Shown: piece by piece, positions 3,034 to 4,251 of the stretch | Layout of the letters: the number at the start of each line of letters is the position of its first letter | How positions within the stretch are numbered: the stretch's first letter is position 1 | Origin: Chloroflexota bacterium | GTDB lineage: Bacteria > Chloroflexota > Dehalococcoidia > Bin125 | Direction: 5' to 3' | Assembly: GCA_028874365.1 (NCBI GenBank) | Contig: JAPPJZ010000062.1 | Span: forward strand, 116,611 to 149,239 | DNA: 32,629 nucleotides | The notes under the pieces: generated by a model | Database searches by the model: none | What the model saw: the letters and a program-made list of their open reading frames with translations, nothing else | Told to the model about the DNA's origin: nothing | Program-made: the position numbers and the translations under genes

Positions 3034-3519
3034 CTAGTGTTCAGTGTCGCCGCCGATGAGTTGCAATGCGTGCGGGAGTACCGGAGCCAGCGCATCGAGG
3101 TTCTCCCGTACGGCGCGCTCGGAGCCGGGGAGGTTGACGATCAGGGTGCGTTCGGCAATTCCACAGAGGCCGCGAGACAGGGCGGCCATGGGGGTCTTGC
3201 GGAGGCCCTCGGCGCGCATGAGTTCAGCCAGACCGGGAGCGTCGCGCTCGATCACCCGGCGAGTCGCTTCGGGCGTGTTGTCTCGAGGACCGAATCCCGT
3301 GCCCCCAGTCGTCACGATCAGGCTGACGCCTGTCTCCACCCACTGGCGAAGTCGGTCGACGGTCAGATCGGGGTCATCCGGCTGGATCGCGTGGTCGGTG
3401 ACATCGATTCCCAGATTGGCCAGATGTTCTCGGACTGCCGGTCCGGAGGTGTCCTCGCGCTTACCGGTGGCTCCCTGATCGGAGAGGGTGAGGACGGCGG
3501 CGGTGAAGTTGCTGGACAT
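3034..3519 (-). CDS. mogA: MoaB/MogA-type molybdopterin adenylyltransferase
   Basis: Cytoplasmic enzyme of molybdenum cofactor synthesis that adenylylates molybdopterin before metal insertion. The 161-residue product is a single MoCF-biosynthesis domain of normal length. Visible motifs are VLTLSDQGATGKREDTSG at the N-terminus, the substrate loop TTGGTGFGPRDNTPEAT and NLPGSERAVRENLDA near the C-terminus. The MogA and MoaB subgroups cannot be separated by eye, so the symbol is approximate. No clear Shine-Dalgarno precedes ATG at 3519. The gene diverges from mraZ and is separated from the radical SAM gene by 39 nt. No other molybdenum cofactor gene is in the window. Confidence 0.9.
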   Translation of the reverse strand: MSSNFTAAVLTLSDQGATGKREDTSGPAVREHLANLGIDVTDHAIQPDDPDLTVDRLRQWVETGVSLIVTTGGTGFGPRDNTPEATRRVIERDAPGLAELMRAEGLRKTPMAALSRGLCGIAERTLIVNLPGSERAVRENLDALAPVLPHALQLIGGDTEH

Positions 3520-3556
3520 GAGCGTGTGGTATCCGGCGGTTCGTCTGAACGGCGAT

Positions 3557-3619
3557 TAATCCACATTATCCACCGCCGGGCCTCCACAGGGGCAGCTTGT
3601 CCACGGTCAATGTGGATCA
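3557..3619. promoter_or_regulatory. Cluster of DnaA-box-like 9-mers upstream of the dcw cluster
   Basis: Compared with the consensus TTATCCACA, four 9-mers match closely: TAATCCACA at 3557-3565 (8/9), TTATCCACC at 3566-3574 (8/9), TTGTCCACG at 3597-3605 (7/9; 8/9 to the high-GC form TTGTCCACA) and TGATCCACA on the minus strand at 3619-3611 (8/9). A further TCCACA core lies at 3583-3588. The first two are contiguous and the last two face each other across 5 nt. The region is AT-richer than its surroundings and lies in the divergent mogA/mraZ intergenic space. DnaA control of the mraZ-rsmH-ftsL operon is plausible, as DnaA effects on the ftsL operon have been reported in Bacillus. Binding here is inferred only. 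Confidence 0.5.
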
Positions 3620-3676
3620 AGCGGGCGCGGGCGGGTCTCCGACCGGGTCGCGGAGCCGATGTCCCTTCAGTCGGGG

Positions 3677-3706
3677 TTGCAATCCCAAGACTTATGTCAC
3701 TAGAGT
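3677..3706 (+). promoter_or_regulatory. Candidate sigma-70 promoter for the dcw operon
   Basis: TTGCAA at 3677-3682 (4/6 to the -35 consensus) and TAGAGT at 3701-3706 (4/6 to the -10 consensus) are separated by 18 nt. They would place the transcription start near 3713, just before the MraZ box and about 70 nt before mraZ. The match is modest and unsupported by data. Confidence 0.35.
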
Positions 3707-3724
3707 ACGACGAAGACCCAGAGA

Positions 3725-3739
3725 TGGGGCAAAGTGGGG
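3725..3739 (+). promoter_or_regulatory. MraZ box (two TGGGG repeats, 10-bp period)
   Basis: TGGGG at 3725-3729 and again at 3735-3739, separated by CAAAG. MraZ is known to bind tandem TGGGN repeats spaced by 5 nt between its promoter and its start codon, and this arrangement fits exactly. The second repeat reads AAAGTGGGGA, like boxes upstream of mraZ in other phyla. Only two repeats are evident here. This points to autorepression of the operon by MraZ. Confidence 0.6.
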
Positions 3740-3783
3740 AAATCGGCATAACGTGACTCCAAACGCGAATCGGGGCTTTTCAC

Positions 3784-4251
3784 GTGGCGACCGTCGACTT
3801 CACCGGGGAGTACGAACATCGCCTGGACGACCGAGGTCGCTTGGCGATTCCCGCCGCCTATCGGACGTTTTTCGAGCATGGCGGCTTCCTGTTGCCGGGT
3901 CCGGACGGACAGATCGAGCTCTATACGCCAGACGGCTACCAAGCGGAGAAGCTGATACGCGCGGTGGGCGACAAGCGGCGGCCGTCTGCGCGGCGGCTTG
4001 CGCGCAGCTTCTTCGGCCGCGTGCGACGGGTGGAGGTCGATCGCCAGGGGCGGATCTTGATCCCGCCTGCCATGCGGGAGGAGCGCGGTCTGGACGGGGC
4101 CACGGTGGTCGTGGGCATGGGCGAGTACCTCGAAATCTGGAGCGCAGAGACCTGGCGGGCAGAGCAGTCGGCGATAGACGAGGCCTACGCCGACCTGCTG
4201 CAGGATCTTGCAGAGGTGATGGACAGCCAAAACCGGTCGGAGGAATCCTGA
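3784..4251 (+). CDS. mraZ: Transcriptional regulator MraZ
   Basis: DNA-binding regulator of the division and cell wall cluster, acting as a ring-shaped oligomer on repeats in its own promoter. The 155-residue protein shows the two characteristic swapped-hairpin half domains: LDDRGRLAIP near residue 14 and VDRQGRILIP near residue 88, both versions of the DxxGRxxxP motif. Length is normal to slightly long. It starts at GTG 3784, with GGGG 8 nt upstream as a weak ribosome site. It ends with TGATG, its stop overlapping the rsmH start by one base. A two-repeat MraZ box lies 45 nt upstream of the start. It heads the long plus-strand operon. Confidence 0.95.
   Translation: MATVDFTGEYEHRLDDRGRLAIPAAYRTFFEHGGFLLPGPDGQIELYTPDGYQAEKLIRAVGDKRRPSARRLARSFFGRVRRVEVDRQGRILIPPAMREERGLDGATVVVGMGEYLEIWSAETWRAEQSAIDEAYADLLQDLAEVMDSQNRSEES

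Follow-up and report, generated by a model that had tools for sequence, protein, structure and literature searches.

A probable DnaA-binding site in the divergent mogA/mraZ promoter region of a Dehalococcoidia genus, kept as a contiguous box pair in part of the genus

The question of how bacteria couple replication to cell division is old and still open. DnaA has often been proposed to control the transcription of division genes directly, but such control has seldom been shown to matter, and a major effect of DnaA on the timing of cytokinesis has yet to be shown in any bacterium (PMC8203912). In Bacillus subtilis, DnaA was found at the promoter region of the ftsL operon in vivo (Goranov et al. 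2005, as reported in PMC8203912), and the products of this operon were unchanged when two origin boxes were blocked (PMC11019786). The ftsZ, mipZ and gcrA promoters of Caulobacter are activated by DnaA, and the boxes upstream of ftsZ in Escherichia coli were shown not to control this gene (PMC8203912). DnaA also binds the E. coli mioC promoter, which is overlapped by a MraZ site (PMC4446571), and MraZ represses dcw through boxes upstream of dcw (PMC8475190).

A cluster of DnaA-box-like sequences was found ahead of the dcw operon in a 32.6 kb stretch of DNA (the window) from a 3.12 Mb draft assembly, here G000. Its named near relatives are uncultured, metagenome-assembled Dehalococcoidia/Chloroflexota. 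The cluster lies in the 264 bp intergenic region (3520–3783, GC 59%) between a mogA-type gene and mraZ (yllB), which is also the first gene of the B. subtilis ftsL operon. In the window, mraZ is followed by rsmH and by penicillin-binding transpeptidase, mraY-type, murG, ddl and ftsA genes. A literature search found no paper joining mraZ with a DnaA box at this site or in this class. The features are as follows.

3034–3519, minus strand: mogA/moaB-type molybdopterin-binding gene (MoCF_biosynth, PF00994, E=1.2e-30)
3557–3565, plus strand: DnaA-box-like 9-mer 1, TAATCCACA, 8/9
3566–3574, plus strand: DnaA-box-like 9-mer 2, TTATCCACC, 8/9, abutting box 1
3597–3605, plus strand: DnaA-box-like 9-mer 3, TTGTCCACG, 8/9 to TTGTCCACA
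3611–3619, minus strand: DnaA-box-like 9-mer 4, TGTGGATCA, which is TGATCCACA read on the minus strand, 8/9
3677–3706, plus strand: probable mraZ promoter, −35 TTGCAA (3677–3682), 18 nt spacer, −10 TAGAGT (3701–3706)
3725–3739, plus strand: probable MraZ operator, TGGGG (3725–3729) and TGGGG (3735–3739), 10 bp period
3784–4251, plus strand: mraZ, first gene of the dcw operon (PF02381, E=3.7e-21)

A sequence-only reading had reported four DnaA-box-like 9-mers within 63 bp of the divergent region, and all four were found in the place claimed, each matching at eight of nine positions. Each is one mismatch away from TTATCCACA/TTGTCCACA (TTRTCCACA), and none is perfect at the G000 site. Boxes 1 and 2 abut, as had been described, and as direct repeats they make up an 18 bp element. 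The description of two boxes as inverted holds only for boxes 3 and 4 as a pair, box 4 being the only one in inverted orientation. Box 1 is 37 bp from the start codon of the divergent mogA-type gene.

A DnaA-box cluster should have several 9-mers close to TTWTNCACA/TTRTCCACA within about 100 bp, in excess of chance expectation, and this is so for the four boxes at mogA/mraZ. The whole window includes six one-mismatch boxes, four of them in the mogA/mraZ region, and dinucleotide shuffles of the 264 bp intergenic region gave a mean of 0.075 boxes, with four boxes in none of 20 000 shuffles. Box sites were ranked genome-wide by pattern searches, which recovered 409 one-mismatch boxes from the 3.12 Mb assembly versus 370 for the reversed pattern. 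About 4e-5 clusters of four boxes in 63 bp are expected genome-wide. As the total for the assembly is close to background, the cluster at mraZ does not reflect a genome-wide surplus of boxes. The contiguous pair, TNRTCCACNTNRTCCAC, was found only once in the assembly, at the mogA/mraZ site. A looser triple-TCCAC pattern was found in ten places versus five for the control, and two of the ten overlap at this site. The concern that many unrelated intergenic regions might be similarly dense in boxes was not confirmed, as similar contiguous pairs were not found elsewhere in the genome. The cluster had also been called unusual for a high-GC lineage. It is unusual within the genome, but the lineage is Chloroflexota (Dehalococcoidia) and not a typical high-GC actinobacterial one.

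The mraZ upstream regions of 15 congeneric genomes, including G000, were oriented to the mraZ strand and compared. The contiguous box pair is kept in seven of the 15 (G000, G001, G002, G005, G008, G009 and G011), and the concern that the boxes might not be conserved in relatives was thus not confirmed. In an ungapped stack of these seven, 16 core positions were 97% identical versus 59% for the flanks, where the best 16 bp stretch reached 71%; the MraZ proteins of the genomes compared are 72–90% identical. TCCACA of box 1 and TTRTCCAC of box 2 are invariant in all seven. Box 3 showed no positional conservation in the congeneric upstream regions. An inverted box was found downstream of the pair in G000, G001, G002 and G008, and also in G012. 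The site in G002 has two perfect boxes, TTATCCACATTGTCCACA, and that in G008 reads TTATCCACATTATCCACC. G014 has a degenerate copy of the pair, while G012 has one perfect box and the inverted one. In the remaining six congeners, consisting of the clade G003/G004/G010/G013 and the outer pair G006/G007 in the tree, the site is absent from the upstream region, and these have either lost it or never had it.

On the mraZ side, a generic consensus promoter scan found nothing, and the −35/−10 pair is too weak for such a scan; because of this, the promoter was inferred from conservation, as the pair is found at a fixed distance from the mraZ start codon and is conserved in the genus. The two TGGGG repeats probably represent MraZ operators, judging by their sequence and period, which agree with the usual repeat form of such operators. 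Between these repeats and the mraZ start, CGGCATAACGTGA (3742–3755) is kept in most of the genus.

A further 75 upstream regions of 330 bp each were sampled from the class outside the genus. Six perfect boxes were found in these regions versus 0.24 expected, and none of 1000 permuted words reached six, with the proviso that the 75 are related sequences and not 75 independent trials. One-mismatch boxes were less striking (19 versus 6.7, with 12 of 1000 permutations as high). Boxes are over-represented at the same intergenic place in other families of the class. The perfect boxes belong to families f1 (G017, whose two boxes are separated by 21 bp), f34 (four genomes from two genera) and f59, and the boxes in these other families are in the inverted form, like box 4. 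All four f34 genomes, although diverged, have exactly 39 bp between the box and the mraZ −10 (TATGAT), and the intervening sequence is only 38–62% identical. Most other families of the class had no box in this place, including f2, in which almost none of the many genomes had one.

A PF08299 profile search of 21 genomes found at most one match per genome: 20 had a single match, and only G002, the assembly of which may lack the dnaA gene, had none. The DnaA protein carries PF00308, PF08299 and PF11638 together, and its domain IV keeps the GGRDHSTV signature, so a DnaA with a normal box-binding domain is present. Upstream of dnaA, two GTGGAT-type boxes spaced by about 20 bp are conserved across the genus, with a weaker TTGGGGA-type site between them. 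Their conservation shows that a classical DnaA target can retain boxes that depart from the consensus as far as the mraZ ones do.

The dnaA gene itself (locus L106, G000:C9:155000-163000) is a single open frame of 468 aa on the minus strand (L106:2964-4370). It is not beside dnaN; its neighbours are obg and a gene that was read as encoding a coaX-type pantothenate kinase. A perfect TTATCCACA is present 9 bp before the obg start at this locus, and most of the genus likewise has a box in that position. An CTATCTGGT element was found beside DnaA boxes both at dnaA (L106) and at mogA (L033–L039), with no clear genome-wide enrichment. No convincing oriC was found around dnaA or at the densest box sites of the genus. 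An origin of replication is usually near dnaA and combines an AT-rich unwinding element with a more extensive array of boxes. The boxes at mraZ were rejected as an oriC, as there are only two to four of them, the GC content of the intergenic region is 59% and dnaA is on another contig.

Contiguous 9 bp tandem boxes were found at about 80 sites across the genus versus about 20 for the reversed pattern. Several of these sites are conserved. In four congeners, contiguous DnaA-box-like repeats separate a gene for a DUF5131 protein from one for an alpha/beta hydrolase (G000:C82, L128:2325-2385; also L127, L131 and L119). A gene for a DUF4015 putative glycosyl hydrolase is adjoined by arrays in which contiguous pairs of boxes are conserved, CTATCAACATTGTACACA ... 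TTATCCACATTGTCCACA (L121:3037-3090, L122:2639-2691, L123, L125 and L126). One to four boxes were also found upstream of a gene encoding a conserved protein of 677–680 aa with LSEADLNHMLDQLGGG near its start (L120:3044-3096, L129:2270-2311, L135:2409-2417); the one member that was scanned had no Pfam match. In G000, boxes lie alongside an inositol-monophosphatase-type gene, and similar-looking sites were seen in G002 and G014 (L136, L206, L208).

Going by motif and conservation, the cluster is probably a true regulatory site at which DnaA binds between the divergent mogA and mraZ promoters, because it exceeds chance, includes a unique pair with a conserved footprint and has a counterpart at fixed spacing in f34, and because the genus has a comparable pair at the dnaA promoter and at most one DnaA-type DNA-binding protein in each genome searched. 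Against this, the boxes of G000 are all imperfect, the site is absent or degenerate in eight of the 15 congeners, counting the single-box G012, most other families are without a box, and the E. coli boxes upstream of ftsZ proved not to control that gene (PMC8203912). A chance or composition artefact would agree with the imperfect boxes of G000 and with a genome box total near background; it is extremely improbable given the uniqueness of the pair, the difference between core and flanks and the shuffles, and conservation in the congeners rules it out. It is also rather improbable that the tandem 9 bp repeat is read by another transcription factor. DnaA binding is predicted from the motif, and conserved pairs also precede the DUF5131, DUF4015 and unclassified 677 aa genes, as might be expected for such a factor, but every letter of the core agrees with the canonical DnaA box, perfect copies exist, as in G002, and related boxes lie upstream of dnaA itself. 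A datA-like locus that titrates or sequesters DnaA and does not act directly on the genes beside it has a similarly small likelihood. Such a locus would have an unusually high capacity for DnaA and would affect the timing of initiation. Clustered boxes bind DnaA, and the genomes have several conserved box pairs at scattered positions; however, two to four imperfect boxes are few for such a locus, and in the relatives the boxes keep a fixed distance from start codons or promoters, which points to a promoter-linked function.

If the site is bound by DnaA, which of the two promoters it serves is less clear. Control of the divergent mogA, with the nearness to dcw incidental, is on the unlikely side but has the geometry of the genus slightly in its favour. 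The distance from the start of the pair to the first base of the mogA start triplet is 45 bp in five of the seven genomes and 40–41 bp in G000 and G001, while the distance to the mraZ −35 varies (110, 111, 120, 120, 120, 120 and 130 bp). The spacing to mogA is thus at least as constant as the spacing to mraZ. The CTATCTGGT element is conserved between the boxes and mogA, and a possible leaderless −10 there could put the boxes just upstream of a mogA promoter. However, this promoter is only putative, the fixed distance from the mraZ −10 in f34 favours mraZ, and the spacing to mraZ changes in steps of nearly one helical turn, as would be expected if phase mattered, a post hoc observation from few lineages. 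We put the chance that the mraZ/dcw promoter is a real target of the predicted DnaA site at about even. In the DnaA reading, cooperative binding of DnaA to the contiguous pair would be most likely, and the inverted box downstream would provide an auxiliary contact. Depending on how much DnaA is present or on its nucleotide state, the mogA promoter, the mraZ-dcw promoter or both would then be activated or repressed. A broader version can be offered only tentatively. In this, DnaA would directly control the mraZ promoter together with MraZ itself across several Dehalococcoidia families, such that the state of the replication initiator determines the expression of division and wall genes, and in the genus this would act through a contiguous 9 bp tandem architecture common to a small DnaA regulon.

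The box pair suggests a link between replication and division-gene expression in these Chloroflexota, and the earlier interpretation is partly supported. The mechanism is known in kind, and the novelty of such a link as originally put forward is lowered by the binding of DnaA at the ftsL operon in Bacillus. A conserved box pair at the head of dcw, with boxes in the same place in several families, nevertheless provides an independent natural case in a phylum far from the model organisms, and the pair is a definite 18 bp element open to test. The closest likeness is to the B. subtilis ftsL operon, where a DnaA site is also found ahead of an operon including rsmH, ftsL and pbpB and a link between replication and division has been proposed (PMC8203912, PMC11019786). 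There the evidence is from ChIP, whereas in Chloroflexota, an unrelated phylum, it is from sequence alone; the Chloroflexota site further differs in its contiguous 9 bp tandem pair and its divergent mogA neighbour. In Caulobacter, DnaA is likewise a transcription factor of division genes acting through boxes in promoter regions, but the targets are ftsZ, mipZ and gcrA and not the head of dcw, and dependence on DnaA was tested. Autoregulated dnaA promoters resemble the site in having paired boxes upstream of a promoter, and the genus has such a pair before its own dnaA, although the two boxes there are separated by about 20 bp with a weak third one between them, while those at mraZ are contiguous. 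In the E. coli mioC promoter, as in the mogA/mraZ region, a DnaA site and a MraZ site are found in one control region; the two sites overlap in E. coli, whereas in Chloroflexota they are separate and flank the mraZ promoter.
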